A DNA stretch of 64,000 nucleotides from Bryoerythrophyllum caledonicum (Eukaryota; Streptophyta; Bryopsida; Pottiales; Pottiaceae). The translations under genes and the position numbers were made by a program. The stretch covers positions 28,836,770-28,900,769 of the forward strand of contig OZ020518.1 in NCBI GenBank assembly GCA_963971425.1. Reading direction: 5' to 3'. The notes under the pieces are model-generated. The model saw only the letters and a program-made list of their open reading frames with translations, was not told where the DNA came from and did not search any database. How positions within the stretch are numbered: the first letter of the stretch is position 1; each line of letters opens with the position of its first letter. Shown here piece after piece: positions 3,001 through 42,249 of the stretch.

Positions 3001-3345
3001 ATGAACCTCAACTACAACATCACTAGGCGTTGGCCTTTGGTCAAGTACACCTTCTAAAACCTTTACAATGTCATCAGAAAATCCTTCTTCTTCTATCACT
3101 CCAATAATATTCTCGTCATCCAATACCACACCCATTTTTTTGAATTTTTCTCCAATTTTCTTAACTGCCTTCTTACCTACTGAATCCAAATCTTCAATCC
3201 TCACAAAAGTTACAAGGCTATCTCCTGTAACATTTAAAACCACACGACCTCTACTATTTACATTGGGGAATGAAACTGTTGAGAAACCCCTTGCACCCGC
3301 GGACCCCCATCTTCCACGTGTGCAATCTAGAAACCCTGAAAGTTT
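1..3345 (-). CDS. Ty3/gypsy Pol: RT, RNase H, integrase (partial, runs off left edge)
   Basis: I read this frame codon by codon and found no stop from 3345 to 1, so it continues beyond the window. It carries in order a linker, a reverse transcriptase with an FVDD box at 2128-2139, a reverse-transcriptase-linked RNase H region near 1.3-1.8 kb, an HHCC zinc-binding domain near 0.8-1.0 kb (H-x-H spaced region followed by CTEC), and an integrase core with the D (VIDLV), D (MRADRG) and E (GKSERG) positions. Known role: copying the element RNA into DNA and inserting it. It lies one frame (-1) from the upstream Gag-protease ORF and overlaps it by 19 bp, so it is probably made as a Gag-Pol fusion by ribosomal frameshifting. 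The open frame over more than 3.3 kb indicates a young and possibly competent copy. No chromodomain is visible before the edge. Confidence 0.93.
3291..3336 (-). promoter_or_regulatory. Candidate -1 ribosomal frameshift signal (slippery site plus hairpin)
   Basis: On the minus strand the in-frame heptamer G-GGT-TTC (3330-3336) fits the X-XXY-YYZ rule and sits directly before the Gag stop TAG. After a 4-base spacer (3326-3329) the arm TTGCACACGTGG (3314-3325) can pair with CCGCGGGTGCAA (3291-3302), giving a 12-position stem with one A-G mismatch and one wobble around an 11-base loop. Slipping back one base moves ribosomes into the Pol frame, which is open. Both components and the frame relation are seen directly; function is inferred. 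Confidence 0.75.
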
Positions 3346-10469: not shown

Positions 10470-11790
10470 TTTTCTTGGAGGCAAAAGATAACTTGGTGAA
10501 CTTGGGGTACAATATAAATGCAGAAATAATAAAGAAATCTTATGTTTTCTTTTTTTGCGCGAGTGGAATGCATGATTAGTAATGGCAATCAATATTCTTA
10601 GGCCTTATCTAATGCAAGTTGAAGTTGTCCCTTAGTATTTTAAGTTCCGCAAGAGTTTATCAATAGCTTCCTATTTCAAGCCAAGTCACCTTTTCTATGT
10701 GGTCGTAGTCTCCTTTGAGACCTACAAGGCCCTGGGGGAATCGGTTTTGGTACTCTTAGTGTTGTAGCTTTTTCCAAGATTGGTCATTGTCGTCGCGGTC
10801 TTTGGAATGCACGTTGGTCTCGGCAACAACTTTTCAACACAACTTCCTAATCTCCAATTGATACAAGCATTGGCGCACAACTGTGCTTTCCTTGAAGTGT
10901 GGTTGTCATGAAATCTATCCGTTTTCAAGATAATATTCTACATAATCTATCATACTTGTAGATTCTTCCATGCCTCATGAGCTCGGTAGGCCTTAAAGGG
11001 TTAATATCGTAAGACCGTAAAGTAGGGGTTGATAAAAGGGATCATTCCTTTACATTTAGAAAAATTAGTGTAGAAACCTTGAGGTACACTTGAATTAGTA
11101 TAGAAGATTTGAAGTCTTAGTTGGATGGTGGCTAGAACATAACATTCTCAGTGATTCTGGGTGTTGTAACTTTTTCTTGTTAGAAGTACAACTTTGAAAG
11201 GATAGTAACACGCAATTAAGCAATTATGCACTTAGCCAAGTGCTCCTAATTAGATAGCTACCTTGGTAGATCATAAATTCATGAAATATTTTTAATTTTT
11301 TAATTTTGGAATCCTTTAGAGTCTTTTGAGAACTTTTCTTCTGACTTTTTATTATTGATACAATATATAACATATTATAAGATGTAATAAATAATAAGTT
11401 GACACATGGCCATGCTCACTACTTGCATGTCCAAAAATAAAATAAATAAATTCTAGGAATAAATACCAATAGGAGTTGAAGGTTGTTGATCTCTATATAC
11501 AAATAGAAAAAATGTGTTTTGTCAAAAGAAGAAGAACGCTGGTCTCCGAAGGAAGCCGGTGTGAATAAAGTGTTTGTTTGTTCTACTACTAAGACCATGC
11601 CCACCGAACAGGGAGTTAGTAAGCTAGAACTACTTCCCCCTTTTGAGGGTAGACACTATTGTAACAAGTAGCTTAAAACCACGAACCAACCAATCAAAAG
11701 AGTAACAAGGAGGGAGGGAGGGAGGGGGCTGAAGAGAGAGAGAGAAGAAGGAAAAATGGAGAGGACGGTGTGTTTCGCAATGTCAGGGAA
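10470..11790. other. Intergenic, AT-rich, nothing recognised
   Basis: No coding signal is seen on either strand. A GGGAGGGAGGGAGGG purine run followed by GAGAGAGAG lies at 11709-11745. The remaining short ORFs lack domains and overlap on opposite strands. Confidence 0.3.
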
Positions 11791-11794
11791 TAGA

Positions 11795-12567
11795 GTAAAG
11801 GGGTACTTTTATGGGAGGTCTTGTGTATCGGGAAAGGCTTGGTTGTTTTCAATTTTGCGTTTATGTAGCAGGATGGACATAGCACGTTGTATGGCAATGA
11901 TGTTAATATTTTGGAAAGTGTTTGTAATTGTATCAATAGGAATTTTGAAGGTATCTTCTAGGGTTTTTATAGATGGGATAAGGGTGGTGGCACGGGCGCC
12001 GGCTGTGATTACAATAAGGGGGTCCACCTTCCATCCAAGGACAATGATGTCATCAATAAGGGGTTGGTATTTATTGATTTAGTTTTCAATTGTTTCTGGG
12101 GAGAATCTATCATTACAGTATGTAAATCGATGAATTGAATGATGTAGTCTTGGTTAATGTGGTCGGGTGGGGGGTCATTATATGGTAGCCCTCTAACGCA
12201 GAGTATGTCCAGTTTGAGTCAAACATTACAGTGGCATCGTTGAGTTTCACATGTACATGTGAGTAGCCATGGTGGAACCGTATTTTCTTGGGGGTCGTTA
12301 TTAAAGGTGCTGGCATTCATGAGGATAAAACATCTCGATTTGTTATGGGAGGTGATTAATTTGCGGATTTCCCATACCGCTTTGTTATGTCTTTTGACAA
12401 TTAGGGAGTGTATGTGGTGGTTATGACATTTAAGTAAAAGGTGTAGCCATGTGTTGGGATACGTGGAAGTGCATATTGGGCATGTTATGGATGGAAATCT
12501 TTCTATTCCAAAGAAGAGTTGTTTTCGGGCATTCCCCATATATTGACCGGCAGGATTGCTAGTTTTT
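11795..12567 (-). pseudogene. Decayed non-LTR retroelement: CCHC zinc finger plus restriction-like endonuclease tail
   Basis: Minus-strand frames read a zinc motif CPIC...HLLLKC, then KRHNKAVWEI, then a region with LDILCVRGLPY and QFID, and finally a segment around AGARATT...IPSIKTLEDTFKI. The CCHC finger followed by RHN and a (P)D...D layout is the known C-terminal arrangement of non-LTR elements that use a restriction-like endonuclease (R2-like clades). At least two frame changes and stops break it, and the expected PD reads LD, so this copy is dead. The reverse transcriptase part is missing; the frame ends upstream at a CTAG junction near 12564. Plant LINEs usually carry an APE endonuclease instead. 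Family assignment is from motif layout only. Confidence 0.6.
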
Positions 12568-14370
12568 GAGCGGTGAGCAATGCTCACTGAGGGGTGGGAC
12601 GTGAGCGGTGGAAATTTGAGCATTGAATTGTCGGAAATTCGAGGATGATATTTTGTAGAAATTGGATGATTAACCGTGGAGATGTGGCACTAGTGTACCC
12701 AATTCCCGTGGAAAATTTGGAGTCGTATTGCCTATTTCTGTGGAACTTTTGCAGTAGTAGAGCCTGCAATATCCACATTTGAAACCTGGATTATGTTCTC
12801 TTGTTTTTGAATATGCATTAAGATTTTATTTTTCTACTGAAATAATTTTTGCATAAATCACATTTTTGTAACATTTAAGTAGTTTATATTATATGATTAA
12901 TTTGTTTACTACATATTAATGCCTCGTGAGAAGTGTTTAAGCCTTAGGATTACAATCCTTAGAAGTTTAGAGGAGAAAATGATTAAAAAAGAACCACCCA
13001 ATATATTTTGAACATCATTCATCAACCTCAAAGTGTTTTAGGTGTTTATAATTTAGGGTTTAGCTTATACTTAATGATAAATTGTATTAGGATTGAAGAT
13101 AAATTTACAAATTTTAAACTGATTCAAAATTGGAGACAACAGAGAGCACCTCCTTTTGTATTGTTGAAAGTTTAGTTTTTATGAAGGGGCTAGTTTTTAA
13201 GTTGTATGTAAGATTTATTCTACAGTACACCAATTATTTGCCACCTGAATGCCACGTGCAAGTTGTTTCAATGAATTAATTTCAAACATTGATAGGTTTG
13301 TAATTAACTTCCTCAAGAAGCTGGGACCATTACAAACAAGGGAACATGTGAAAATCTCCTAAACTAGAATTCAAACTCATCCTGCCATTGCTGCCCCATA
13401 TTGTTATAGGATTTAAACGGGAGATCGCAAATAATTGCGATAGAGGACCTGTTGAAATTGTAGTTTCTGTGAAGGTCTTTAGGGTCTTTCAATTTTTATG
13501 TATGAATGATGCTATATTACCATCAATTTTTTCCTTTATAAAATTGAATTTCCAATGTCAAGAACTATAATTTGTACCTTGCTTTGGATGGATGAATTTT
13601 GGGTGGCACCAATTTTCATGTACATCGACAAAAAAAATCTCCCAACAATGGCGGGGTTTGAACTGTTGATTTTGATCAACATTTGTTGCTCGTGAAACAT
13701 AAATACATGCTAATAGTGGCAAATGAGGTGGTTCGGTGAGAACGCTGAAGACGTGGTGGGACTCTGTGGCCACCATTTAATGTTTTATTCATTTGAGTTG
13801 TAAGATCCAACGAATGATTTGTCATGCCAATTCATGTAGTGCACAATATACTTCCTTACAATTTTTTTGCCGATTCATGGCATTTGCTAAAATGTTTAAG
13901 AAATAAATTTGTAGAAATTGGAGAAATTTTATACTATATCATGTTTATTCAATTACCATTATAACCACAGAGAATATTGAGTTTTTCTCATGTTAGAGAA
14001 TGGAATAGATCTACAAAGAGGATGAAATGTTAGACGGAGGATATAGAAGAGAAGTATAGAAAATAGGAGAGAAGTAGAAAGAAGCTTATATTAAAAACTA
14101 AGGAAATATAAACAATGGAGAAAGAAGAGGAAGATGGAAAGAGGAAGAAAATAAAATTTAAGAGGGAACAAGTAGGCTACAAATGAAAAAAAATTAAAAA
14201 ATTAAAATAGAACGAAGGAAAGTAAACAGTAGGAGAAAAATGAGTCAAGAATGGAAAAAACAAATACCGTTAATGGATGGTTGAGTAATCGAGAACCGTT
14301 ATACAATGATGTGAATATTACATGGAGAACTTGGTTCAATGCCAAGAAAGCATCTAGTCCTGTAGATGGT
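12568..14370. other. Intergenic, AT-rich, no gene seen
   Basis: It begins with a short GAGCGGTGAGCAATG repeat motif next to the retroelement remnant. The rest is AT-rich, with a strongly purine-rich stretch at about 14000-14250. No ORF here shows a domain or codon pattern that I trust. Confidence 0.35.
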
Positions 14371-15030
14371 TGAGGTTGTCGGATCCAACAACTGTCACAA
14401 GAATTGGAAGTTTGAAATTTTTATACATTTGACAATCACACAAGACCAAAGCATTGTCACCAAAGCATATTAAGATAGCTGGGATCATTTTAACTAAAAC
14501 AATAGAATTGTAACACAACAAACGTAGTGAGTACGACTAGAAAATAACAACACTACTGAAATGACGATGTAGATGCTCTGAGAATTCAAGATCTACCTCA
14601 GCTTCAACATCAAGATACATAAAGACATCGGAGTTGTACTTAGGACGTGATATAGACGGGGAAGGCGGCGAGAACTGCAAAGCTTGAAGCCTCGCAATAT
14701 CTTCCGCATACGACGGAAGAGCCCAAGTCTTCGAGGAGGAAACATACTCTCTGCAAGAATCAATATACATCGAACACAAACTTAGTAGAAGCTTCTTGAT
14801 GAAAGAAATATAGTGAAGAGGAATGTCAGTGTACTCACTTACTTAGGATCTTCAAGTCTTGGCCTCTTCACCGCTAGAGGACGCATGGTCTTGGAAGTAG
14901 TTGGTGCCAAGGGTTTTTTTGCAATTGGAAGAGTTGCCAAAGGTAATGCTAGGGTCTGCATTGAAGAAAGGACTGCTTCATACAACTCCTTCTCGCTTTC
15001 CAGAGAAAAGTTGTGTCTACCAGTAGCGTT

Positions 15031-16402
15031 CACTATAAGAAACCCGTGTTTTTTGTGACAGGGCAACTAACGTGCAATTATGTTTTGTGCAGCATCCGGC
15101 ACGTCAACATTGACGTCCAAAAAAATCCGTTATAACTGACAAGCGAAAAACATGCCAAAATCTCAAAAAACAGGCCCACGTTTTTTAAAAACGTCACAAA
15201 AACTTGGAGGTTGAAGGTGTTAAAAATCTGCCATGTGGCTGCCATGTCGCATCCACGTCATCGCCACATGGACGGGCAGTGCCACATCTCCAACTTTTTC
15301 ATCCGGGCCCTTGGTAATGTGGCCCATGATGTGGCGCATGACGTGGCATACGATTGTGACTAGGCTTGCATACGTGGACCCGCCATTTTATGACGTGGCA
15401 CCTTTAAAATATGACGTGTCACTTTTTAAAATATGACGTGGCATGTCCAATCAGCATAGTTTAATGCAATAATTAATTGTGGACAGTGTAAATTGGGACG
15501 TCATTTCTAACACGGTATGTTTTCTGTGACGTTCGTTATGACGTTTTCTGTGACATTCATTGAGATGGAGGTCACCAAAAGCAAGCACCAAGTCAGTAAA
15601 AACAAGTGCCATGTCACCAAAAAGAAGCGCCATGTCATCAAAAAGTACCGTATCACTTTAAGTTTCAAGGGTAATTCAAATTCATCCAAATAGATGGATG
15701 AAAGTGAATCACTCTTGATTCAAGTGTGATGAGATAGGAGAGAAGGCCTTACATATATATACAATGGGATGCACAAGTGGTGACAATCCATATGGGATTA
15801 TTGGATTTGTCATGGTGTTAGCCTCGTGTTAGCATAAACATTAAAATGTCACAGTAGACGTCCATCCAGATGTCTGTTCTAACATCCTTTTTGCCTACGT
15901 GGCAACTGATTTCAACCTTGCCTACGTGGCACAAACATTTTAAAAAGAATCCAATTTCTACCTTGCCTACGTGGCTCAAACATGTTTTTTGTGATGTCAG
16001 TAAGGACATCCACGTTTTTTGTGACGTCAGTAACGACATCCACGTTTTTATTTTTGTAGGGATCAGCCCATCTCCATTGTGTTTTAACCGTTGGGCAGTG
16101 TTTTACGGGAGGTTGCAGTAACAATCTTGAAGTTACTCACAGTGAAGCTAAACCCCCCTGCCGACGTGGCATTGTCACCTTTCTGAGGACGTTGTCTAAA
16201 ACATGACTATGTTCACTAGGACGTCCCGCAAAACAAATATGTTTATGCTAACATCTCTGCGTTTTTCCGCCAATTTTTTCATGTTTGGTGCAACATCCAC
16301 CAGAATCCGACAGCCCAAGGCTCGGCCCGTTCGCAAAAACATGTTTTGACAAACACACTTGATCATAGCTAACGTCACAAAAATCACGGGTTTCTTATAG
16401 TG
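15031..16402. mobile_element. CACTA-type non-autonomous transposon, copy 1
   Basis: The ends are CACTATAAGAAACCCGTG and its inverse, with about 28 bp of terminal inverted repeat carrying one mismatch. A 3-bp target duplication GTT flanks it (15028-15030 and 16403-16405), as expected for CACTA/EnSpm elements. The 1372-bp interior has no transposase, but it is dense in TGACGT and ACGTGGC motifs. It interrupts exon 5 of the methyltransferase pseudogene, and removing the element plus one GTT restores the exon frame. Copy 3 has the same length and differs at only a few visible positions. Confidence 0.92.
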
Positions 16403-17433
16403 GTTGCAGGCACGAATGCTATTACCTGAAAGGAGTTCAAAGTGTAATTAAAATAAATCCATAGTAATGGAAAAGAGAGAAATCGAAAATTCCTTACAAC
16501 AATGAAGAGACAATAGATAGTATTGGAATTACCTGTAGCAACTGAAACGTCAACCACCACACCGCCTGGGCGTGTCAGAGACAATATGAGAGAGGAAAAA
16601 AAATACTCATCCTTCTCCCTTGGACCCCGCCAAGCGCGTTTACTGTTCATCAAAGGAGTTGTGCAATAATTGATATGGTGTCATTGACACTAAGATCGTA
16701 TCCCATGGCTGAAAACTCTGGCACATCCTAGAAAGAGAACTTGGACTTCTAGATGGTGGAATCTGCGGGCCGACGGACCCGTTTGAAAAGCAAGACCTTG
16801 AAAAGGTTGGTCGTAGTGAACTGAGTCTTTGCCAAAGATATAGGCAAGTGATAAACTCCCGTCCAATCCTTCAGTGCCTCAAAACCAAAAGCCCCATAAA
16901 ATGAAGATATTTCATCGAGCAATTCTTCATTATCAGAGGGAAAAAATAGAAGCATTGCTCCTTCATCATGCAATACCTCATCAGCAAAATCAAAAAGTTC
17001 ATCGAAGTACTGCTGATCACAAATGTTCCAGAATGGAACATCTGAACAAGGATCTGACACATTGGGGACAGGGAAGCCTTCAGGGACATCTGTGATCATA
17101 AGATCAGCAGCGCCTTTCATCCATGGTTTCCCGCCACGTGTGCAAGACCGATTTGGATTGCACTCCAGAGCAAACCGACATGCATTAAGAATGAAATCCC
17201 GCTATTTCAAAATAGAGGTGTTGAGAATACGCACTTGGTAGGCCAAAGTCGACATAGTGATCTTGGGCAGTGGATTTGGCTTCTTCAAAACGGCAGAGGT
17301 AAGGGTAACTGGGGAGCTCGTTGCTTCAGTCATGGTGGTGTCCTCTTTAGCTCCAGAATTCACTACGGAGGCCACCTTCAAAGCCCCAGCTGAGGATTTA
17401 GTCGGCTTTGCACCTTTTGCATTGCCCTTCTTT

Positions 17434-18767
17434 CACTATAAGAAACCCGTGATTTTCGTGACGTTAGCTGTGATCAAGTGTGTTTTTCAAAACATGTTTT
17501 TGCGAACGGGCCGAGCCCTGGGCTCTCAGATTCTGGTGGATGTTGCACCAAACATGGAAAAATTGGCGGAAAAACGCAGAGATGTTAGCATATACGTATT
17601 CGTTTTGCAGGACGTCCTAGAGAACATAGTCATGTTTTAGACAACGTCCTCAGAAAGGTGACAGTGCCACGTCGGCATGTGCTTTCAGTTTGACTGTGGC
17701 TTCACTGTGAGTAACTTCGAGATTGTTACTGCAACCTCCTGTAAAACACTGCCCAACGGTTAAAACACAATGGAGATGGGCTGACCCCCTACAAAAATAA
17801 AAATGTAGATGTCGTTTCTGACATCACAAAAAACATATTTGAGCCACATAGGCAAGGTAGAAATTGGATTCTTTTTAAAATGTTTGTGCCACGTAGGCAA
17901 GGTTGAAATCAGCTGCCACGTAGGCAAAGAGGATGTTGGAACAGACGCCTGGATAGATGTCTACTGTGACATTTTAATGTTTATGCTAACACCATGACAA
18001 ATCCAAAAATCCCATATGGATTGTCACCACTTGTGCATCCCATTGTATATATATGTAAGGCCTTCTCTCCTATCTCATCACACTTGAATCAAGAGTGATT
18101 TACTTTCATCCATCTATTTGGATGAATTTGAATTACCCTTCAAACTTAAAGTGATATGGTACCTTTTGATGACATGGTGCTTCTTTTTGGTGACATGGCA
18201 CTTGCTTTTGTTGACTTGGTGCTTGCTTCTGGTGACCTCCAGCTCAAAGTCAGATGTCATAACAAACGTCACAGAAAACATACCGTGTTAGAAATGACGT
18301 CCCAATTTACACTGTCCACAATTAATTATTGCATTAAACTATGCTGATTGGACATGCCACGTCATATTTTTAAAAGTGACAGTTCATATTTGAAAGGTGC
18401 CACGTCATAAAATGGCGGGTCCATGTATGCAAGCCTAGTCACAATCGTATGCCACGTCATGCGCCACATCATGGGCCACATTACCAAGGGCCCGGATGAA
18501 AAAGTTGGAGATGTGGCACTGCCCGTCCACGTGGCGATGACGTGGACGCGACGTGGCAGCCACATGGCAGATTTTTAACACCTTCAACCCCCAAGTTTTT
18601 GTGACGTTTTTAAAAAACGTGGGCCTATTTTTTGAGATTTTGACATGTTTTTTGCATGTCAATTATAACGGATTTTTTTGGACGTCAACGTTGACGTGCC
18701 GGATGCTGCACAAAACATAATTGCACGTTAGTTGCCCTGTCACAAAAAACACGGGTTTCTTACAGTG
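17434..18767. mobile_element. CACTA-type non-autonomous transposon, copy 2 (inverted)
   Basis: Starts CACTATAAGAAACCCGTG and ends CACGGGTTTCTTACAGTG, with one changed base in the right terminus. The flanks carry TTT at 17431-17433 and 18768-18770, a 3-bp target duplication. It is 1334 bp, in the opposite orientation to copies 1 and 3, and clearly more diverged. It splits exon 4 of the methyltransferase pseudogene in frame. Its interior holds a perfect palindrome ACGTCAACGTTGACGT near the right end. Confidence 0.9.
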
Positions 18768-19699
18768 TTTGTGGTAACCTCTGTCACAAATGCCCCCGTA
18801 GCAAGGCCCTTCTTCTTCTTTCCCGAGGATTTGTCGGCTTCAAGCAATGCCTCTTTCACCAACCCTGTATCTTCATCGTCGTCTGATACCTCTGTAGAAT
18901 GAGTTAGTAGACACTTTATTTCCTCCTCTACATCTGGACAGAAGTTCTTAGGACACTCCAGATACCAGCAGCATTCGCGGAAATGCTCCCTGGTATAGTT
19001 CTTCTTCTGTAGAGGATTGAAGATAAATGTCTCCATTGAAGAGGCGGGGTCGTACCAACTATGAACCATTGGTGGCAGCTTCTTGATAGCCCCAGCAGGT
19101 AAAAGTTCGTGCTTCATATACCTTCAAAACTCACGGAAATTGGTGTTAGAATTCAAAGAAGCCAAATTTGCGAATACAATGGAATTTGAACTCTAGCTCA
19201 ATGGTGTGGGTAACGTAGAAGTACCTGAGGCCAAGCCGTTTCACTACTTTGTCGGCATCCTTGACACTCTCAAAAGGTTTTCTCTTTTGATGCACCATGT
19301 CACCTGTGAAATACCCAAAGAAAGCTTTGTCCCAAAGCGTAATCCGCCATGTCTCAACATAGTCTTCGAAGGACATGAAATCCTTTGAATTATCCACCCC
19401 ACCACAAAGATCTAAGTATGGAATAAGCTCCTTCTTAGCCATCTCCTCAAGACTGGCCCAAAATGACGCGCGAATAAGAAACTTCTTTAAATGGTCCTCG
19501 CTAGCAGGGGGCTTTGGAAAGCAAAGGTCTTGTCTGACGCTTAATGAACTATTCCACCATTTGAGCCAGCGAACCTTATATTGTGGCTCAACTGATGAGG
19601 TTGCAATGAGTTGCAATTTTCCTAGGGTCATCTCAACCTTGGATGCAACATAGACGTTGTAGTGGAATATAACCTACAAAATCAAGACATAAAGTTTGT

Positions 19700-21290
19700 G
19701 AATATTGCAATCACTTTCTTCCCGTAAGTAAATTTGGTTAAGTATAACATCAATCTAAATATTCATTGATTGAAGCATCAAAGACTCATCTTCGAAGAAA
19801 CAATATTTGAAAAGTATAGCCATTCAAAGTTTTCAATACATCAGAGAATACATTGATTCAAGCATGGCAAAAACTAAAGACAAGGGTGACTACTTTCAAG
19901 ATCAGTCAAGCATGCCCAAAACTCATGAAATAGAGCAATCATAATTTAAATGGAACGATATACTTTGAATGGATCATCATATAGACTATAATTGTTCTTA
20001 TGAGCCATACACATATCCACAACAAATATGTGTCTATACATACGAGTATGTGGATAAATTATTGAGACAAGCAAATGCTTACCGGCCACCAATTCCACTA
20101 CGTATAATTCCAAAGTGAATTAGATGTCTTGTTCAGACCTTCATCAATGGTTATTGGATCCGACAACTCAAAACTCATACCATTGACACAAGCTACTAAT
20201 CATCTCCAAACAGGAAGTCAAATCCAGCAAGTGAGAATTTTACAAATTAAGCTCTCGAAACTCTAACAAAATCACGACGTGTTTAACATCTCCGAAGTAG
20301 TTGTTGGATCCAACAACTAGGAACAACACCAATTCAGCACAAAGAATCCTAACTATTCCATTGGCTACTTATCATCTCAAAATCGATAGTTGGATCCAAC
20401 AACTAACAAATATATTAACTTAGCACTCGTGAACTCTAACAGTGTCACCACAAAGTCATCAACTCGAAACGGGTTGTTGGATCCAACAACTCTAAATTTT
20501 TTTATCAAGTACTGCTCTTCGAAACCAAGATGATAAATGTAATGTGCAATTTTATGGCATTGATTACTGCGTGGCTATATATTCCACCATGAAATATCGA
20601 ATTAGTCGTAATTTCATACCAATTCCAGCTATTTTTACTACTAATTACAGATTACAACCTCTTTAACTCCTTAAAATCTATCCATAAGCAAAATCACATA
20701 CACTCTCCCCTGTTTATGATGCTTGGTATGTAAATGTTCCCTCTTGTTGTCGGAACCGACAACTACTCATTCTTTAAATATTGCATGGTGATCAAACTTT
20801 GAATTTTACTAAACGAATTTCACCATGAAGAAATGCACCATACTTTAATCACAAGGATCTAGGTTGTTGGATCCAACATCAAACAAGTCCAATATTTTCC
20901 AATGGTTCGACTCTAGATTTGTTAACCCTAAGTCCAAGATCCTATATATGATGCTTGGTTTGTAAATGTTCCCTCCAGTTGACGGATCCGACAAATACTC
21001 ATTCTTTAAATATTGCTTGGTGATCAAACTTTGAATTTAACTAAACAAATTTCACCATGAAGAAATGCACCATACTTTAATCACAAGGATCTAGGTTGTT
21101 GGATCCAACATCATATAGAGTCTAAAAAGACCAAAGATAATCCTACTTTCATTAAAGCCTAGGTGATCAGAGTACTACAACAAATGAATCCAACCAGGGA
21201 TAAAGATGCCAAGCATTCAAACGACAAATAAATTTACCATGAGTACACAAGTAGATTAAAAATATAATCTTGAACTTAAGAATTTTGCAA
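19700..21290. repeat. Intron packed with GTTGTTGGATCCAACAAC-type palindromes
   Basis: This large intron of the ParB/methyltransferase pseudogene holds eight copies of an 18-bp palindrome or near-palindrome, at 20150, 20300, 20386, 20473, 20746, 20863, 20978 and 21095. Copies at 20300-20317 and 20473-20490 are perfect GTTGTTGGATCCAACAAC. The copy at 20746 keeps the arms GTTGTCGG/CCGACAAC with AA in the centre. Part of the array comes from a duplication of about 170 bp. Confidence 0.85.
20716..21118 (+). repeat. Direct duplication of about 170 bp containing palindrome pairs
   Basis: The stretch from about 20716 to 20886 recurs from about 20948 to 21118 with few changes, including shared GATGCTTGGT, CATTCTTTAAATATTG and CATACTTTAATCACAAGGAT. 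Each unit carries two palindromes, one near its start and one near its end, about 117 bp apart. Confidence 0.8.
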
Positions 21291-22724
21291 GGAAACTTAC
21301 TTGTTCTAATAATCCTTTGTATGCCGGATTTGCAATGGAGCTGCACTTGTTGAATAGATTGGCCAGGTCATCTCGTTTTTTAGTAACCGCCTTTTCCACG
21401 TATTTGTGAAATCCTTCTTCACTTTGGTCAGCTTCCTCAACATCTTCGGAGTATGTTTGTCCGGCCTCTTGTGAGGCTTGGACAATTTCATCCTGATCCA
21501 ATGTAATCCCGTAAGAACCAAATAATAAGTACGACGCCATTATAAACATTGATATTGAACATGTAGTTAACTTACTTGAAAAATAAAATTTACCATGAGA
21601 TACTTGGTTGAGGGATACCAAGTTTTGATGGTCTTTGTTACACACGCTTTATATTGATCTTCTGTTAGCATTGGTTTATAATACTCCAGCTTGTGACTTC
21701 CGTACAGTTGAATACGATGAAGCGTGTGCACCAATGTAGTTTTGATGTGAGCATTCTGGTTTGCCCTACACATTCAAATATATAGATTAGATTTTCTGCA
21801 CCAAGATTCAAAACATGAACAATCAATGAAAATAAGAATTATGGCTTACTTGTTTTTGTCGTGCATGGCCTCTAGAATATCACCTTGACCACCGGAAGTG
21901 TCCAAAACAACGCAATCCGGATTCCCATGCCTAGAGTGCCAGTTAACATCCTCCGCATGCAATGTATCAATAACTTCTTTCCAAGCAAGCAATCGGTGAT
22001 TGCCATCATAGACGAAAAACATGCTACCTGATAAACCTTCCAAATCAGGGTCTGCCAAGAGCCTTTTCTCAAATGCAAAATTTTCCTCAATCCACAAAGC
22101 GCTCCAGGACTTCATGTCGTCAATAGTAACCATCCGCTTCTGACCATTCTCATTGAATTCTGATACATACATGGCTGCTGCATGCGGTTGATAGCCAAAT
22201 CGAAATGCACCGATTAGTTTGAGAATGTCAGATCGTAGGGTGGGTCTCACCAAAGGCATCGGGATCAGCTGACAGAGTGGAATCTTTATCAAAGACTTAG
22301 AGCTCGGAATCCGGGGCATATTCTCGATCACCCGGAATAAGTTACCTTGAATAAGACCCTCCTAGAGTTTAAGTTCAGCATTTTGCAGATTCACGACTTG
22401 ACGGCGAGCACATTCCTCTGTCGTCATGGGACCTCTTTGGATCTCCATAGGGGGGTTGGTTGGAGAAGGCTCCTCGCTTGCTAATGCTCCTCCTTCCTTT
22501 GAATGGATGCTAGTAGGTGTGTCAGTCTCAGGAGGGGTCCCCAAATGGGTTTGAAGTAACAATCTTGAACATTTTCGAATTAACAGCTCACCTGAAGACT
22601 CAGGCTCCTCTTCATTAAGATTTCCAGCGTCCTTGTCGATCGAAGAGTCCGTCACACGATCCACCATGTCATTCGTTGGAATTTAAGCTTCACTTAGCTC
22701 CTCAGCTTCTCCATATGAAGCCAT

Positions 22725-24220
22725 CTACGCACACCAAATCATGTTGAAACCATATGAAGGCAAAGTACTTGTGCAATGACCAATTCTAGCACCCTAGACT
22801 AACTTTCAGATCTTCTCGTAATTATTGAGTTCAGACAACTCACACTACGCATTGAAAGCACAAGTTATGCACGAACATAAATGATTGCTTATGATCTCAT
22901 TTAGAACACTCAAAATATGATTCATCAAAGTTATCAAAAATCAACATCAGTTTAAACACAGTTTCACATTTCATCACAAATTTATGTTACACATGCATTT
23001 CGGTTCGCATCTAATATCGAGACAATGAATTCCAGGATTCAAAGACTCCACGATGTGATTGTCGGATCCTACAACCTGAATTTAGTATTCCCGAAATCAT
23101 GTTGGTTCACTGATAGCTACGACTTTTATATGAGTATCGACAAGTATCACATGAGTTACGACATGATTCAGTCGTAACTCAGCCATTACAACATGAATCA
23201 TTACGCAATGAATCATTACGACAGGAACCATGTCAACTGAATCGTAACTCAGCTACAACAATAATCACATGAGTTCTAATGAACACTGAACTCCAGGTTC
23301 TGTATTCTAATGATATTCCAGGTTCAGTATTCTAATGAACACTGATACTCGTATATGCTACGACATGTATCACATAAGTTCGGATTAGCACTACTCGCGC
23401 ACCAGGAAGATCAACATTTTAAGCGACACAAAATCCATGCACAAGTTCACAGTTTCACAGTTATCGGATCCTACAACCTGAATGTACATGCGCAAGTTCA
23501 GATCAGTTTTAAATCCAATCCGCAAGTCTGGACACGACACACAGTTTCGATGGTCGTTGTCGAGGATGGGGAGTTGCTCCAAGTGTATCGGTGACTCTGT
23601 CCTGCATTTTTTTACTAATTATCTTGCTTACAACCTGTCATTAGTGTTAGGTATAAAGAAGAAAAACAAAAAGTTGAATGTTTTCATCATCCCGAACTAT
23701 GTTTTCAGATCTTCTGGATAGTTGCAACAGCAACACTGATTTTTTTTGAAAGTGATGTAGGTAGATTCATATTTTGCTTTCAAGCATGACTAGATTTCAG
23801 AATTGCTACTCGCGTGACTCACGAACGCTCACCACCTTAGCAGTTGCCGCAGACAATTCTCACTTGAGTGCATAGATACACTCTAATATTGACACTCAAT
23901 GATCTCACTGTTGGAGCCGACAATGGCAGTTGTCACTATTTGAAGACCATAGGATTCCTTCTCAAAACATATTATCTCACTAAGAACTTGTCAAGTACTA
24001 AAAAATTCAGCTGTGGAGTTCCAGGTTTCATGTGATCTACAAGTATACGGTGTCTAAAATCGGGAAGACGAAGAAGCACTTCGGCAAGAGCAATTTAATC
24101 TTCAAGCAAACCTCATATTGAACCCTAAGTGCAATATCATATTCAAGCAAACCAGAAACTTGAACCCTAAGAAATCATTTCTCGGACTTCACCTAAGAAG
24201 CATACAGATCTGGATTTTGA
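22725..24220. promoter_or_regulatory. Divergent spacer between the two cassette genes
   Basis: This is about 1.5 kb between the ParB/methyltransferase start (22724, minus) and the likely SWIM-gene start (24221, plus). It holds palindrome-family members at 23058-23075, 23460-23477 and a degenerate one near 23907-23924. Repeated words such as TCATTACGACA and CAGTATTCTAATGA occur at 23170-23340. It is the natural place for a shared promoter, but no TATA box could be assigned with confidence. Confidence 0.45.
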
Positions 24221-24524
24221 TGCTTACCAAAACGGCTCCTCGCTCTTCTGCGGGTCCACCAGCCTCACCTCCACAACTGCCACCGCTCAAGATCACCTAC
24301 ATCAACGTCTATCAACAAATTAGACTCTACACTCCACAAGTCACACGGTACACCACAAAGCTGACCTAAGTTCCAAATAGCAGACGCTTACGGCGTTCTG
24401 AACCGGCGGCATAGAAATTGTGAAGATGCAAGGGAGTTTGACGACCAAGCTGCGACGAACTATGAGGAGCACCGGCTCAACCCAAAGTTCGAGGAATCTT
24501 CGTTCCTGGTGAGATGGATGCTAA

Positions 24525-25896
24525 CACTATAAGAAACCCGTGTTTTTTGTGACAGGGCAACTAACGTGCAATTATGTTTTGTGCAGCATCCGGCACGTCA
24601 ACGTTGACGTCCAAAAAAATCCGTTATAACTGACATGCGAAAAACATGCCAAAATCTCAAAAAACAGGCCCACGTTTTTTAAAAACGTCACAAAAACTTG
24701 GAGGTTGAAGGTGTTAAAAATCTGCCATGTGGCTGCCATGTCGCATCCACGTCATCGCCACATGGACGGGCAGTGCCACATCTCCAACTTTTTCATCCGG
24801 GCCCTTGGTAATGTGGCCCATGATGTGGCGCATGACGTGGCATACGATTGTGACTAGGCTTGCATACGTGGACCCGCCATTTTATGACGTGGCACCTTTA
24901 AAATATGACGTGTCACTTTTTAAAATATGACGTGGCATGTCCAATCAGCATAGTTTAATGCAATAATTAATTGTGGACAGTGTAAATTGGGACGTCATTT
25001 CTAACACGGTATGTTTTCTGTGACGTTCGTTATGACGTTTTCTGTGACGTTCATTGAGATGGAGGTCACCAAAAGCAAGCACCAAGTCAGTAAAAACAAG
25101 TGCCATGTCACCAAAAAGAAGCGCCATGTCATCAAAAAGTACCGTATCACTTTAAGTTTCAAGGGTAATTCAAATTCATCCAAATAGATGGATGAAAGTG
25201 AATCACTCTTGATTCAAGTGTGATGAGATAGGAGAGAAGGCCTTACATATATATACAATGGGATGCACAAGTGGTGACAATCCATATGGGATTATTGGAT
25301 TTGTCATGGTGTTAGCCTCGTGTTAGCATAAACATTAAAATGTCACAGTAGACGTCCATCCAGATGTCTGTTCTAACATCCTTTTTGCCTACGTGGCAAC
25401 TGATTTCAACCTTGCCTACGTGGCACAAACATTTTAAAAAGAATCCAATTTCTACCTTGCCTACGTGGCTCAAACATGTTTTTTGTGATGTCAGTAAGGA
25501 CATCCACGTTTTTTGTGACGTCAGTAACGACATCCACGTTTTTATTTTTGTAGGGATCAGCCCATCTCCATTGTGTTTTAACCGTTGGGCAGTGTTTTAC
25601 GGGAGGTTGCAGTAACAATCTTGAAGTTACTCACAGTGAAGCTAAACCCCCCTGCCGACGTGGCATTGTCACCTTTCTGAGGACGTTGTCTAAAACATGA
25701 CTATGTTCACTAGGACGTCCCGCAAAACAAATATGTTTATGCTAACATCTCTGCGTTTTTCCGCCAATTTTTTCATGTTTGGTGCAACATCCACCAGAAT
25801 CCGACAGCCCAAGGCTCGGCCCGTTCGCAAAAACATGTTTTGACAAACACACTTGATCATAGCTAACGTCACAAAAATCACGGGTTTCTTATAGTG
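24525..25896. mobile_element. CACTA-type non-autonomous transposon, copy 3
   Basis: It is the same 1372 bp as copy 1, offset by exactly 9494 bases. I saw only three base differences (for example ACATTGACG in copy 1 against ACGTTGACG here), so the two copies are about 99.8% alike. The flanking TAA at 24522-24524 and 25897-25899 is a 3-bp target duplication. It sits in a coding exon of the SWIM pseudogene. It has no transposase gene. Confidence 0.93.
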
Positions 25897-26745
25897 TAAA
25901 CATGTTATTGGGTGAACACGTAGAGCAAAACCCATTAGCTACGAATTCAGCTATTGTGATGGCAGCAAGCAAGGAGTTCCTTGCTGAACATCTCCTTCGT
26001 CCCCTAGAATCAGAGAAGACCATGACAGTAGAAGATATGAAGGACGTCATGGAAAAGTACGCCAACCTTGCCTCTCCAAACATCAAGAATGCCATCTCAT
26101 CGTTCAAGCAGGTTGGACGCACTGGAGCAATGGATGGCATCCGTCAAATGAAGGGGTGTACAACATGGCCCTTTGTCCAGCGAAATATGTTTTCCGGTCA
26201 AAGGGGTGACAAGGATAAAGTCTTTGTATTTAAAATGAGTGAGATAGGACCCGGCTCAGGCGTTGATTTCGTGACAAGGATGCAAGCTGGCCGAGACTTG
26301 CAAGATGCGTGGCTCATGTTTGATCACTCAATTCAATCAACTTCAAAGGATTCATGGCAGATAGCGCTGGTGCAAACTGGAATGTTGTGAGGAAGATCTA
26401 CAGTTCTGGTGATCCGCAGGAGGTGATGGCCGATCGTGAGCGCACTTGCCTCCTTCATTGGACTACCTCCATGAATCGCCACACGGACAAGTACATCAAG
26501 AATGATTTCCAAAATCAGCATCGTCTCCTATGCAAGCAATACAAGGATTCCAAGACTTCAGCCGAATCCGAAGTTCGATACCTTGCAATTCGGGCATGGT
26601 GGCAATCCTATGGAGCTCCAAACAATGAGGCTCTTAAACAACTTGGACAATGGCTCGCATTTTGGCACTACCGCTACCGGCAATGGGGTGCCTCCATGCA
26701 AATGGTAAGAGTCCTTTGAGAATCTGAAGTATTTTAGTCGTATTG

Positions 26746-26763
26746 GTTGTTGGATCCACCAAC
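26746..26763. repeat. Cassette palindrome inside SWIM-gene intron
   Basis: GTTGTTGGATCCACCAAC lies in the intron 26705-26795, showing that the palindrome family is shared by both genes of the cassette. A further member, GTTGTCGGATCCAACAAC, is at 14375-14392, downstream of the methyltransferase gene's last exon. Confidence 0.8.
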
Positions 26764-28435
26764 CTAAATCCTTGTTGTTGACATGTATTCCACAGGACCT
26801 CACCGATGAAGAATGGGCTGAAATGCCATCTTGTAATTTGGCGGAGTCAATTCATAACCGTTGGCTTCAACAGTCCGGAAACAAGGGGAACGACTTGTAG
26901 GATGCAACAGTGGACGACTTCGTACGTGCATTCATGCAATGCACTAACTATTTTTAGTTCTTGAAGGGAGGGCGCTCGGGTAGTGGACCCTCCAAGCAAG
27001 AGTTGCAACTACGCCATGCCCAGAGAATGGGAGAGCCCGAGAAAGTTGTTGAAGCTCTTCATTGCATGCCTGGAGCTAAGGAGTGGTGCACCCATACGCC
27101 TCATTTTGAAGGAGAGGAAGTCTTTGGGTCTTGCAAGCGGAAGCTTGACCTTCCACTTGGATCCGAGTTTGACAGCCACCGCCCGGACCAGATGAACTTC
27201 TCCCATTCCAAAGTCCCTACCAGATCCACTAGAGCACGCCGGGAGAGTGCGCCTTCAGCCCTTGATGTATCTCTCCCTTCTTCTCCTACTTCCTCAGACG
27301 ACGTCCAAATCATGTCCCCACCGACGTCAGCACCTATGGTGTCTTTAAGGGTTACGCATTTTATGAGCGTCCATGAGTCTGAGTGCGATTTGAAGAAATG
27401 GCACATTGCTCGACTCCCTAAAAATTCAGGGAAGAGTTGCTTTGCTAAATAGGCCCGGACAGGAAGGACGTGCAAAGAGAAGATTGTGCGCCTGGATAAA
27501 AGTACTCCTATTCCTACCTATTCTGGAATCCTACACGTTCGAAGGACATTGAAGGACCAGGTCATGGAGTTCTTCCATCGTGCGGACGACATCAAACGTT
27601 GTGTAAAGGGGACGAAGAGGAAGTGGATGAACCACCGACCTCCTGTCCCCACAATATGGCTTGTGCTGAAGGGCACTAATCTCACAAAGACTGAGATTCC
27701 TTAGACTGGAGGAAGGTGGATTCCAGCTTGAAGAACACCGAGAAGTTTCACGAAGGCGTCTGTTTGGAGACACATCCAATCGAGCAGCACATCCTAGTGC
27801 TATTCCACTACCTTCTGAACCCAATGCACATCCAACGACTCGCGATTGTCGCCACATTTGCCGTCTCCCAAATGCCAAGGTCTCGGTGAAGTAGAGAAAC
27901 CTTTGGGAGTCAGCTGGTATTCTCGATGCTCGCATCTCGCAAATTATTCCAATTCCGCATCCGGCTAATGGATGCATCATCTTACTTCACTCAAAAAAGG
28001 CGCAGACTACAGTTGAGTATCGGTTGACAATCGGCCCTCTCCCCGATTGTTCTTGTGCAGATTTCAAGGACATGTTGGCACGGACCAAGAAGAGAGGCGC
28101 TTGGTACCACTGCAAGCACCTCTACTACATCTTCCGTGTGGTGTGCAATCTCGATCACGAGGATGACCATTTTGTCCATGCCCCCACTTTCAGCTTCAAC
28201 GAGATCAAGAAAGTCATGGACAAGGGAGTCAATCGTTTCCTGTAGAGGATACCAAAAGCGTATTTACTACTATAGGTCAACTTGACAGTCCTTATGTTTT
28301 GCAAATGAAGGCCTCAAAATCTGACAACCCACGGTTATAGGCAGGAAAAAATTTAATAATAGAAATATTCGAAAAAATATTAGAATATATTTTTTATTTG
28401 TAGTTAAAATTATTTATTTTTAGTAACTTTCTGCT

Positions 28436-28497
28436 CACCGCTCATGAAATCACCGCTCACCGCTCATCGCTCACCGCTCATTGCTCACAAACTAGCG
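28436..28497. repeat. GCTCACCGCTCAT short tandem repeat ending in AAACTAG
   Basis: Imperfect tandem copies of CACCGCTCAT/CATTGCTCAC end at CAAACTAG, where the flanking minus-strand ORF is cut. A related block on the opposite strand cuts the retroelement remnant at 12564-12590 at the same AAACTAG word. The stem GTGAGC-ATT-GCTCAC there, followed by CTAG, is loosely like a Helitron 3' end. Confidence 0.5.
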
Positions 28498-29345
28498 TCG
28501 TTGGTGTGGATGGTTCTATTCGAGGCTTTTTTAGTTCAGGTGGAATAGTGGGTTCTTCATATGGAATTGAATGTGCTTGAAATAAGGCGATGATGTGAGA
28601 GTCTGGGAATGGACTTACTTGTTGTTTAAAGTTTTGGTACCAGTTTTTATCTGGGGTGATGATGAGCGTAGATGTGTGGTTTGGGTCATTTTTGACAGCA
28701 AGGCATGCCCAATGTAGTGCTTGTTGTGTTTCCTCCTCGTTGTGGGGGTGTGCTATAGCATTACCAATCCATTTGTGGTCAAAGGCTTTCCCCAAGGAGC
28801 CGAATATTTTATCTCTTTCAAATGGGGAGTAGAATTTTAGTAGTTTGGTGGAGCATGTGATAGGGGAGGAGAAGTATGATTGTTCTATGTTAAAGCATGA
28901 TATTAGTGATTCTAGGATGGGGGTGGGTATTGTGTATTGTGCATTTTTGAGGGGATTGTTTTTTGAGATACGATATTTGTATCTTTAGTACAACCACATT
29001 AATTCGGTTTAAAATGATTGGGTTATTGGTTCAATGTTCATGGATGTCTGTAGTTTTATATTGTATTGGTTCCATAGCCATTGGAGTCTGGTAGTGGTAA
29101 TGGTTTGTAGATGCTAGCCATTTTCTTCATACAGATGTGCTAGGTTGTTGTCTATTTTGATTGTGTTTGAGATTGTGAGGATATCATTTTTGGAGTTACA
29201 TTCTGTGGTATAGATGCTTAGGAGTGGAATTATTGGTGGGGTTACGAATCTTGTGTCTTGGAGTTGTTCTTGGAGGTGGTGGGTTTGGATAATTTCGGAG
29301 TAGAATTTATTTTGGATCTTTTGATAGTATTGTTTTAATTTTTTG
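28490..29345 (-). pseudogene. Broken PCIF1-like methyltransferase ORF
   Basis: Reading the minus strand gives a continuous but stop-broken frame: ILESLISCF, then EQSYFSSPITC, then KIFGSLGKAF, then AIAHPHNEEE, then LIITPDKNW. The order E-x3-SP, FGS-x-G-x-x-F and a catalytic tetrapeptide region followed by a hydrophobic strand ending in P-x-W mirrors the PCIF1/CAPAM family, which methylates N6 of cap-adjacent adenosine in mRNA. At the NPPF position the sequence reads AHPH. At least three in-frame stops occur upstream of the methyltransferase part (NG*HLQ, SF*TEL, LY*RYK). The longest uninterrupted piece is 105 codons (28478-28795). It is joined at its 3' end to a short-repeat block at a CTAG junction. 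A mobile-element origin is likely but inferred. Confidence 0.5.
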
Positions 29346-31250
29346 GTGTTGTGGATGGATGTGTTTTGTCACTTCAAACACTATTATCTTCTCATCTATG
29401 AAGTCAATTAATTTTTTTTTGACAAGTTATATTTTGTAGTTTCATATCAAGATCCTAGAGATGGAGTACAAAGGAAGGATCTCATGAGCTTTTTATGCTC
29501 GTTATAGTAGAATGAGCGTCTTTAGAGTGTTTTACATTAGAAATTTTAATCAAGGATTTTCAATGATTTACATATAGGTGTTACTTTGTTTTGTTTTGTT
29601 TTATGACAATCATTGACATCTTCCAAACCATTGGTCATCTTAGGGAAAATGAAGTATATTTGGAACGCTTCATAAGTAAGAACCTGCAAAGAGTTGGTTT
29701 GAGAACATTTCAACCTAGAAAATATCCCTTTTGAATTTCAAGGTCTTATCCAATTCAAAAAATTAGAAAAGTAGCTCAATGGTATAACAATCCTCATATT
29801 AAATTGTTGGCATTTCAAAATTTCTTCAATCTTTGCGTCAAATTTTCTCCAATCTCAAAAAGATACTTCTTCCTTAAAAGATTACAAGGTCAATGGATTA
29901 GTTTTTTTCTAGTAAAAATCACCATTAGAATGATCCAATAGAAACCCTAAAGTCAATATATTTGAAATTCATGTGTTTTTATTCCAATTAGAATAAAAAT
30001 ACATGATTTTCAAAACATATTGAAAGTTTAATAAGAAAAAATTTATATTCAAACTAAATGTGTTGTCCTTATGACGGACATCCATATTTATTTGTTTATG
30101 TCATTTGATATTGCTCTAAACTCAACAATTCACAATCATCACAATTATCCATGAATGAATGAATGAATTATGTTAATGATTCTGGAAAGGACTTTCTGTG
30201 TCAAAGTTGTAAATTTTAAGTTAATCATTTTGCCTTAAGTTTGTTGTATTTTCAAAGATCGCAAAAATCAAATTCTCTGTACCTCAAAAAAATCCTTTGT
30301 ACCTCAAAAAAATTCCAAATCTCATTTTGTATCCTCTAGGATTATCTCAGGAATACTCGTGTTGAAATGAATTATGGACATAAAATACATGATGTTATAG
30401 CAAACATATTGTTTCTTCTCTCAAAAAGATCCTTGCAACGTATTTGATTTTTAAAAATAAATTGTCCCCTTCTCATGCCACATTCCAAAGGAACCAGAAT
30501 GTTTCTGTGTGTTGGTCCTACAATTCTATATGTCACATTGAAGAGTGTTTGCACTTAAGGTATTCAATCATATGGCTTCGGGTGCCATTACTCCCATGTA
30601 ACATTCCTTCTCATTATGTATAACAAAACAGCAGCATGACATTGATCACTGGTCTGATATAACTTATTCCACAATGCTAGCCCGTCCATTGAACTGGTCC
30701 AACAAAACCAACTCATCCAATACGGAAAATGACTCGCATCAAAAGGCTCCTTTGACCTATCTAAACGACATGAGCTAGGCTAAATGACACAAGCTTCTCT
30801 GTAACACTACATGCTGAAATTCCACGGTACCACGGAAACAAGTTGCCATGTTTCAAAAGCACTCACTGAAAGAACAACAAAAGCTATGGTTGTTATCCTC
30901 GCGGGTTTTTTTTAACACTAATCTGATGCTTTAGGATATCAACCGATAAAAACGAGGGTTGTTTGAACGTACCGGAAGTTTTGATAAGGTACCCTCTTTG
31001 CATTTATGATACTATTCCTTTCTCTCCATCAATTAGACCAATGGAGGAGCATGTTGTAAACCTCAAGGATTGCCCAAAAAAAAATGATTTTTGTTTGATA
31101 GGAGTGAAGAAAGAGTTGAGATATGAATATCACCTGCATTTTTATTTTTTTATTTTTTTCTTGCTTTGAGATGGTTGTAGATATTTATAAAGTCCTGATT
31201 TAAATGATGAGAATCTTGTTGCTTAATAATTGACTCTAAATCTACACACG
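29346..31250. other. AT-rich intergenic region, nothing recognised
   Basis: No ORF with credible coding features is visible. There are short local repeats, for example CCTCAAAAAAATTC-like pairs near 30280-30310. Confidence 0.3.
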
Positions 31251-41700: not shown

Positions 41701-42249
41701 CACTTAATACCATGGATTCGAATACAGCTTTCGATGGTGTCATTGTAAATGGTCACTTCAAAGCGATGTATGAATGTCGAATCTATCAAAAATGTTTATT
41801 TTAGTTCTTGATATGACATTTTGGTGTTCGTTCTGCAGATCTGTATTGCAGAGTCAAGTTCCCCGTCCTCCAATAAGTAGGAAGAATTCACAAGTGATGG
41901 ATCGTAAGTCAGTCGGAGCACTCCTTCAACCACGACACCGCAGATTACCAAGTGCAGGAATCTCATCGTCGACGGACAAGCTTTCACACAAGCGGACTTC
42001 ATCTCTTGGATCGGTGGCTAACACGGATTTCGAATCAAGTGGTATGTTTTTACCCGCCTTTCCTAGTCACTTGTTGATGGAAGGTAACTCAGTGTCTAAT
42101 CGTGTCAGACGTTTCTATGTTTCCATGCATTTTTTCCAAAGTATCGTGATTTTTTCAGTAGAGTTAAAGCCCCTTGTCATTGTCATGTTGTTATTATAGG
42201 CAACAGAAGGGTGGCAATTGGTGCCGGGTCCTCAACGTCCTGGAGGTAA
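32773..42249 (+). CDS. KCH: Kinesin-14 with calponin-homology domain (KCH type)
   Basis: Twenty-three exons join in consistent phase to 1389 codons: 32773-33070, 33709-33866, 34343-34480, 34860-35247, 35384-35526, 35760-35834, 36003-36080, 36233-36334, 36613-36642, 36803-37144, 37308-37389, 37492-37587, 37883-38065, 38255-38361, 38726-38904, 39050-39214, 39429-39682, 39827-39990, 40235-40453, 40725-41268, 41408-41579, 41839-42041, 42200-42249. A calponin-homology domain covers about residues 100-215 and coiled coil about 440-640. The motor starts at [11 protein letters not shown] (about 644) with P-loop GQTGSGKT (730-737), switch [10 protein letters not shown] (847-855) and switch II DLAGSE (880-885), and is followed by a Ser-rich tail of about 400 residues. 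KCH proteins are minus-end-directed motors linking microtubules and actin, known in moss for retrograde nuclear transport and tip growth. The neck precedes the motor, as in kinesin-14. The start is the first ATG in frame. It looks intact. Confidence 0.93.
38905..39049 (+). other. U12-type AT-AC intron in the kinesin motor domain
   Basis: The intron begins ATATCCTTTT, the exact U12 5' splice consensus, has a CCTTGAC branch-site match (39034-39040) about 10 bases from the end, and ends in AC. Splicing there joins DGVQKK directly to LEIRNNS and keeps frame, whereas no GT-AG choice I tried did so without losing residues. It lies between the DLLS and NVPDAS parts of the motor. Confidence 0.85.

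Follow-up and report, generated by a model that had tools for sequence, protein, structure and literature searches.

Family-specific palindromes as candidate protein-binding sites in the noncoding DNA of a two-gene transposon family from Bryoerythrophyllum caledonicum

A palindrome tied to a transposon family

The window analysed here is a 64-kb stretch of Bryoerythrophyllum caledonicum DNA (contig OZ020518.1), in which a preliminary description had noticed an 18-bp palindrome dispersed over a two-gene cassette. This cassette is recognizable as a broken copy of a two-gene DNA transposon, which carries a minus-strand gene for a ParB-like and methyltransferase-like product (gene A) and a plus-strand gene for a transposase (gene B). 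The palindromes are probably binding sites, specific to each transposon family, of a protein encoded by the element itself, most likely the product of gene A, with a putative role in preventing the silencing of the element.

The whole window was searched for the 18-mer with up to three mismatches, and shuffled controls were run in the same way. This gave 12 matches against 0.10 expected, a number reached by none of 100 shuffles. Eleven of them fall between 14375 and 26763, in line with the confinement to the cassette that had been reported, and the twelfth, at 56586 with 3 mismatches, is chance-like. The 13 sites named in the preliminary description are all present, including the two weaker members at 20978 and 23907 (Table 1). 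None of the 13 overlaps an exon as read here, and their placement in introns, spacer or flank was thus confirmed: eight lie in a single intron of gene A, three in the spacer that separates the two divergent genes, one in an intron of gene B and one past the end of gene A. They do not represent 13 independent events, given that seven of the eight intron sites sit in tandemly repeated units with lengths of about 87 and 232 bp (20709-20881 and 20941-21113, 94% identical, and three units about 87 bp apart).

Across the 13 sites GGATCC is almost invariant and the arms GTTGT/ACAAC are largely retained, with the GATC core present in 11, as had been stated for most cores. Variation is found at position 6 (T8/C5) and position 13 (A7/G4/T2). 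In a set of 193 related sites, picked by similarity to the motif, position 6 is C97/T86/A9/G1 and position 13 is G97/A84/T12, and the main letter at the other positions accounts for 88-97%. Positions 6 and 13 are part of two CpGs in the form GTTGTCGGATCCGACAAC, and changes of C to T and of G to A are the expected leftovers of the loss of methylated CpG; the symmetric GTTGTTGGATCCAACAAC is probably a doubly decayed form of GTTGTCGGATCCGACAAC. Selection for symmetry, which had been suggested from the palindromic arms of the variants, does not find support in the window. The 13 sites contain 3 compensated cells, 16 one-sided changes and 2 two-sided changes without pairing, the permutation test of pairing-preserving change is not significant (p 0.08-0.13), and the symmetry argument is unnecessary given that CpG decay accounts for the commonest variants. 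Among 63 sites from four other copies, 41 have CG or TA at positions 6 and 13 (p 0.036, for sites that are non-independent). The palindrome was also considered as a mobile unit, and this was rejected when inspection by eye found no flanking duplications.

Genome-wide counts were made in the source assembly (437 Mb), with reversed patterns as controls, and distances to ParB-like exons refer to a list of 150 that were scored among 1717 candidates in this assembly. The exact 18-mer occurs at 20 sites, and all 20 lie inside or next to relatives of the element: two are in the window itself, 15 are spread over 12 loci that are all homologous to the element, in pieces of 65-93% identity, and three are no more than 1 kb away from relatives of gene B. 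The CpG form GTTGTCGGATCCGACAAC has 37 exact sites (reversed control 0), of which 14 lie within 5 kb of a ParB-like exon of the same family, where 0.03 would be expected; near listed exons of other families there are none within 5 kb and two within 15 kb. Within 15 kb, 16 sites are near an own-family exon and a further 12 near a relative of gene B, for a total of 28 of 37. Five of the other nine are located in homologs of the element (L014, L023 and L024) and four outside the loci compared. A control palindrome with the same core and arbitrary arms, ACATCGGATCCGATGT, has no site in the 437 Mb. The motif is therefore not as frequent in unrelated DNA, further copies of the cassette also carry it, and the earlier proposal that the sites are candidates for recognition sites linked to the cassette is strongly supported.

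Five copies (L013, L014, L015, L021 and L022) have neither the ParB-like exon nor exons 2 and 3 within the 10 kb read, and keep transposase sequence. They carry 15, 13, 13, 19 and 18 palindromes, respectively (at most three mismatches, with any letter allowed at positions 6 and 13), and many of these are stepped at about 86 bp. Given that the sites persist where the ParB-like part is absent, these copies point to a binder that other copies supply in trans, or else to the transposase.

The carrier element and its genes

The window copy is bounded by imperfect terminal repeats (CAGGATTGCTAGTTTKTGAGC... and ...GCTCACAAACTAGCGTCGTTG), and a matching target duplication was not found at its ends. 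Exact 10-bp target duplications (ACCTTATGAA, ATCTCTCCCA, ACCTTTATCC and GGGCCTTGGT) occur in four sister copies, L005/6, L007/8, L009/10 and L014, and a fifth, L011/12, has a near-match duplication with one mismatch and a border off by one base. The window copy is dead, because gene A contains in-frame stops, three CACTA-type elements are nested in the copy and the start of gene B is lost. Two of the nested inserts interrupt gene A, and in comparison with L006 and L010 the copy is without about 2.8 kb carrying the gene B start. The CACTA-type inserts, which are non-autonomous and whose ends read CACTATAAGAAACCCGTG..., are all three absent from the 95% sister copies and stand outside the palindrome system. 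A LINE-like (long interspersed nuclear element) frame on the minus strand, read by eye at 11760-12550 and 28504-29400, is interrupted by the window element, and L009/L010 seemingly also sits within a LINE of this kind.

Recent activity of the family is probable, given its many near-identical copies with open frames. With the N-terminal part of gene B from L010 as query, 25 long matches at 95-100% identity were found in the source assembly, L010's own locus included, plus one partial match; among the matches listed, 19 have an open frame of 718 residues, in one case with an internal stop. ParB-like exons at 92-99% identity number 27 with that of the window, and 23 have a 292-residue frame, again one with an internal stop.

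The ParB-like domain of gene A has invariants that include DGNHR and AW in an alignment of eight rows. No match was obtained for the spliced translation of gene A among 5.8 billion proteins, and 292 proteins were retrieved by a profile of eight ParB-like exons (E <= 1, with 4e-73 as the best value); the 120 of these that were listed are all unnamed or 'hypothetical' and are without Pfam domains, and no relatives were found in viral contigs. As regards the ParB-like fold of the preliminary description, weak and remote ParB-type profile matches recur in three libraries, alongside unrelated ones of similar weakness: phrog_1033 is matched by 12 of 68 members and DUF1015 by 5 of 68, DUF6551 by three, CB_ParB_C by two, DndB by one and DGQHR by one of eight. 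The best E values are 0.002 for DUF1015, 0.017 for the ParB-like phrog_1033, 0.029 for DGQHR, 0.071 for DUF6551 and 0.089 for CB_ParB_C. DUF1015, DUF6551 and DGQHR are members of the ParB-like group. Pfam gave nothing significant for gene A or gene B in the exons of the window and of the sister copies.

DNA amino-methyltransferases are expected to have the catalytic motif DPP[YFW]. In a 22-row alignment of relatives this is replaced by D-x-P-[ED]-GLPVP variants, which makes it doubtful that the gene A product is active as a DNA methyltransferase; what favours the earlier assignment is a stretch resembling motif I, the S-adenosylmethionine (SAM) motif, which follows the methyltransferase-like part in relatives.

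Gene B was read by comparison with L010 and with the open-frame relatives L042 and L043. Its motifs (FDHVKR / FMADSAGANWNAV / CxxHW / NLxESIHNRW) were recognized by eye and compared with the pattern of Mutator-like elements (MULEs), and its CxC...CxH finger was likewise read by eye, the Pfam SWIM match in L043 being below the cut-off (E 0.2). Given that no Pfam MULE match was obtained for gene B, the designation 'Mutator-like' rests on the length of the target duplication, the finger and the motifs read by eye.

Palindromes in other families

Seventeen further presumed families were chosen blind to palindromes. Fourteen were picked by their ParB-like exon (L025-L030 and L033-L040, with the extensions L031, L032, L042 and L043), two by transposase (L044 and L045) and one (L041) by ParB similarity in a prokaryote genome collection. 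Their separateness is presumed from identity and frame length, and L033/L034 and L035/L045, which are alike in their palindromes, may belong together. A clear palindrome of its own was found in ten families, a weak one in two and, within the 2 kb read, none in five. The clear ones are CGTCGGTACCGACG in L025, TCCTCGGTACCGAGGA in L026, CNATCGGGNCCGATNG in L027 with L032 (loose), TCTCGGATCCGAGA in L028 with L031 (10 sites), ACTGCCGNNNNCGGCAGT in L029 and L043 (11 and 8 sites), CCTTCGGTGCCGAAGG common to L033 and L034, GTCTCGGTCCCGAGAT in L035, GGTCTCGGATCCGAGACC in L041 (3 sites) and AGTTTCGGATCCGAAACT in L044 (3 sites, two with arm changes). In L042 and L043, which represent the L025 and L029 families, the layout is the same as in the window, with the palindromes between gene A and a divergent transposase whose open frame has 732 or 736 residues.

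The core TCGGNNCCGA is common to nine of the ten clear families, which differ chiefly in the arms. All ten have CpGs at 18-mer positions 6-7 and 12-13, and the centre bases vary by family, GATC being replaced by GTAC, GTGC or GTCC. A table of motifs by family, with motifs derived from the same loci in which they were counted, is diagonal at 1 mismatch apart from L028+L031, L035 and L041, which have GTCTCGG arms in common, and from L033 and L034 with their identical motif. As a control for cluster size, the same procedure was applied to 23 pieces of 2 kb (46 kb) from the rest of the window, where the best cluster was of 3, seen once, and all others were smaller; TCGGNNCCGA cores do not occur in these 46 kb. 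Cluster size alone sets apart L025, L026, L028+L031, L029, L034 and L041.

Genome-wide, CGTCGGTACCGACG has 49 sites (reversed control 12), of which 34 are within 5 kb of listed ParB-like exons of other families (20 loci, 0.17 expected), none is near those of the window family and 15 are near none listed. For TCCTCGGTACCGAGGA there are 203 sites and for CACTGCCGNNNNCGGCAGTG 165, both with a control of 0; among the first 50 sites of each, 16 and 11, respectively, lie within 5 kb of a listed ParB-like exon. L041 (CADCWO010000058.1) is a 4.7-kb contig of another organism, deposited in a cyanobacterial (Synechococcales) metagenome bin, with a 38% ParB relative. Its broken-up frames resemble exons, and for this reason it is probably eukaryotic transposon DNA placed in the wrong bin.

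Possible roles of the palindromes

The explanation that we favour is that the ParB-like and methyltransferase-like protein of gene A would bind the palindromes as a symmetric dimer and would thereby mark the noncoding DNA of the element, that is, its introns and the divergent promoter region. The bound protein would keep the genes of the element active, or would shield the element against silencing by the host, and copies that are rich in sites and lack the ParB-like part would be served by the protein in trans. The protein and its sites would diverge together from family to family, given that the arms change and the two-CpG core stays fixed. We infer the binding, the binder, its dimeric state and the anti-silencing role from these patterns, the anti-silencing mechanism being carried over from the VANC/VANDAL system because the pattern of sites is similar.

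Several observations weigh against this explanation. The transposase is inherited together with gene A and could be the binder. The palindromes of L030 and L045 are weak, five of the 17 families (L036-L040) have no palindrome family within 2 kb upstream, and the clusters of three in L027+L032, L033, L035 and L044 are no better than the best control piece, so that these four are distinguished by their TCGGNNCCGA cores only (3-7 each against 0 in the control DNA). At 3 mismatches the window-family 18-mer gives 1253 genomic sites and its reversed pattern 551. A motif derived from L044, GTTTCGGATCCGAAAC, has 30 genomic sites (control 0), and only one of the 30 is near its transposase class. The ParB identity is remote, with all library matches short of curated cut-offs and unrelated models scoring alike (KMP11 0.0071, DUF5531 0.013), mostly in one to three members. 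A search of PDB profiles gave irrelevant weak matches and no relevant one, and AlphaFold models of single exons from single-sequence input reached pLDDT (predicted local distance difference test) values of 32 and 46, too low to bear on the ParB/Srx fold.

With a single success in 30, GTTTCGGATCCGAAAC failed as a marker of the 66% transposase class. It forms clusters away from the listed members of this class, for example at C10:14773693, C11:2659605 and C12:11705731, which perhaps represent one more element family carrying a palindrome of its own.

Binding by the transposase, through a fast-diverging zinc-binding N-terminal part and in the service of transposition or regulation, is unlikely but survives best among the alternatives. 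The N-terminal part is indeed only 39-40% identical between families, versus 64-66% for the DDE part, and the copies without the ParB-like part retain transposase sequence. Nonetheless, the sites are concentrated in the gene A intron and the divergent promoter region, away from the ends of the element, and the repeats close to the ends have a different sequence (GAGCGGTGAGC).

Binding by the gene A product could also be imagined in a bolder form, rather improbable when taken as a whole, in which the ParB-like protein would load on the family palindrome as a clamp, spread along the element and exclude host silencing. This would amount to a eukaryotic ParB-parS-like armour of transposons, with families engaged in an arms race of protein-palindrome specificity around a fixed CpG core.

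That host transcription factors bind the sites, having been recruited for expression of the element, appears very doubtful. A single host factor family would account for the presence of the TCGGNNCCGA core in most palindrome families and for the promoter-like and intron placement, but not for arms that are family-dependent and almost private, nor for the absence of such cores from the remaining 46 kb of the window.

It is most unlikely that the palindromes are neutral repeats which hitch-hiked with the element and were multiplied by tandem duplication in the intron. The tandem units that hold most of the intron sites are what would be expected in this case, as is the finding that in the 232-bp duplicate the palindromes are alike at 33 of 36 positions, which is not above the value for the whole unit. 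However, in the 193 motif-selected sites the similarity is 0.83 over the 18-mer versus 0.30, near chance, in the flanks; at the orthologous gene B intron site, which alignment of exons located in 12 of the 16 sources tried, it is 0.95 for the palindrome versus 0.84 for the rest; and palindromes in the same layout are found in other families.

The least probable alternative is that the sites are targets, at the GATC adenine or at CpG, of an encoded methyltransferase, which would fit the two fixed CpGs and the motif-I-like stretch but is at odds with the replaced catalytic motif and with the variable centre, given that the variation between families speaks against GATC as the purpose of the sites, contrary to the GATC methylation target first proposed, and makes adenine methylation an unlikely one.

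Other features of the window

The coordinates of the element, its genes, the nested inserts and the palindromes are given in Table 1. Elsewhere in the window, a retrotransposon gag-like frame with DUF4100 (3327-5843, minus strand), a reverse-transcriptase RNase H frame (52396-52980, plus strand) and a gene that by eye reads as a kinesin with a calponin-homology domain at its N terminus (33684-42196, plus strand) were observed, together with two direct copies, 83% identical, of a repeat of about 750 bp at 53783-54529 and 55054-55771. Genome size and introns are of eukaryotic character, and the kinesin gene, along with the types of retroelement, suggests a land plant or a related alga.

Table 1. 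Features of the window copy of the transposon, with mismatches to the 18-mer for the palindromes
Feature	Position	Strand	Remarks
Whole transposon copy	12551..28503		broken; borders from end alignment with sister copies
Gene A	14537..22724	-	several exons: ParB-like, middle, methyltransferase-like; from frames and homology
Methyltransferase-like exon	16752..17201	-	non-canonical motif DVPEGFPVP; 29 relatives from profile and alignment
ParB/Srx-like domain exon	21846..22331	-	motif DGNHRLLAW; 150 scored source-genome matches
Gene B, transposase	25899..28245	+	DDE-type pattern, C-terminal SWIM-like CxC...CxH; first part missing in window copy
Nested non-autonomous CACTA-type insert	15031..16402	+	99.8% to 24525-25896 (self-comparison)
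Nested CACTA-type insert, inverted	17434..18767	-	91% to the other two
Nested CACTA-type insert	24525..25896	+	TAA at both flanks; occupies the place of ~2.8 kb in sister copies
Palindrome	14375..14392		1 mismatch
Palindrome	20150..20167		2 mismatches
Palindrome	20300..20317		exact
Palindrome	20386..20403		2 mismatches
Palindrome	20473..20490		exact
Palindrome	20746..20763		3 mismatches; both CpGs retained
Palindrome	20863..20880		1 mismatch
Palindrome	20978..20995		4 mismatches
Palindrome	21095..21112		1 mismatch
Palindrome	23058..23075		3 mismatches
Palindrome	23460..23477		3 mismatches
Palindrome, degenerate	23907..23924		5 mismatches
Palindrome, gene B intron	26746..26763		1 mismatch; orthologous position conserved in relatives

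Comparison with known systems

In ParB/parS partition systems a ParB-like domain is found beside arrays of palindromic sites, and in this the element resembles them. It differs in being a chromosomal eukaryotic transposon, in having no ParA among the frames read and in the remoteness of the similarity, and no evidence was obtained for the parS-like partition role that had been considered, the setting being that of a chromosomal transposon. No description of a ParB-like gene or of such palindromes in transposons was found in the titles and abstract openings that searches of open PMC papers listed, and the ParB-like family with its 292 relatives appears to be undescribed.

The likeness to MULEs lies in the 10-bp target duplications, compared with 8-11 bp in MULEs, in the putative SWIM-like finger, which is common in MULE groups, and in a second gene on the opposite strand, as in several groups (PMC6446971); the DDE-type pattern and the C..H motif, read by eye, are also shared. 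What separates the element from MULEs is the absence of the Pfam match and of the term 'ParB' from the main text of that paper (PMC6446971).

The closest parallel is offered by the VANC/VANDAL system of Arabidopsis. In the sections of the two reports considered here, the VANC motif is dense in the element's introns and in its noncoding DNA upstream, has spread by tandem repeats and is largely private to a family; families switch motif, and escape from silencing has been proposed (PMC5735166, PMC10398659). Both are transposons with an accessory gene, a private motif in noncoding DNA, growth of the motif by tandem repeats and turnover of the motif between families. A family-private noncoding motif that is rare elsewhere was found here as in VANC/VANDAL, with GTTTCGGATCCGAAAC as the only failure. 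The sites differ, given that those described here are palindromes, about 18 bp long and built on a fixed CpG core, whereas the VANC motifs in these sections, YAGTATTAY and AGTTGTCC/AC, are non-palindromic. The accessory protein here is ParB-like and methyltransferase-like as judged from its sequence, and is likened to VANC by the pattern of sites and not by sequence; the binding of VANC, as reported there, has been demonstrated, whereas for the present protein we infer it. The proposed mode of action thus resembles that of VANC/VANDAL, with a different protein and a different type of site. If it is true, this would be a second case, seemingly separate from the first, in which each transposon family owns a DNA-binding code spread over its noncoding DNA, and the many parallel pairs of protein and palindrome within one genome would make the evolution of specificity and sequence-specific anti-silencing accessible to testing.

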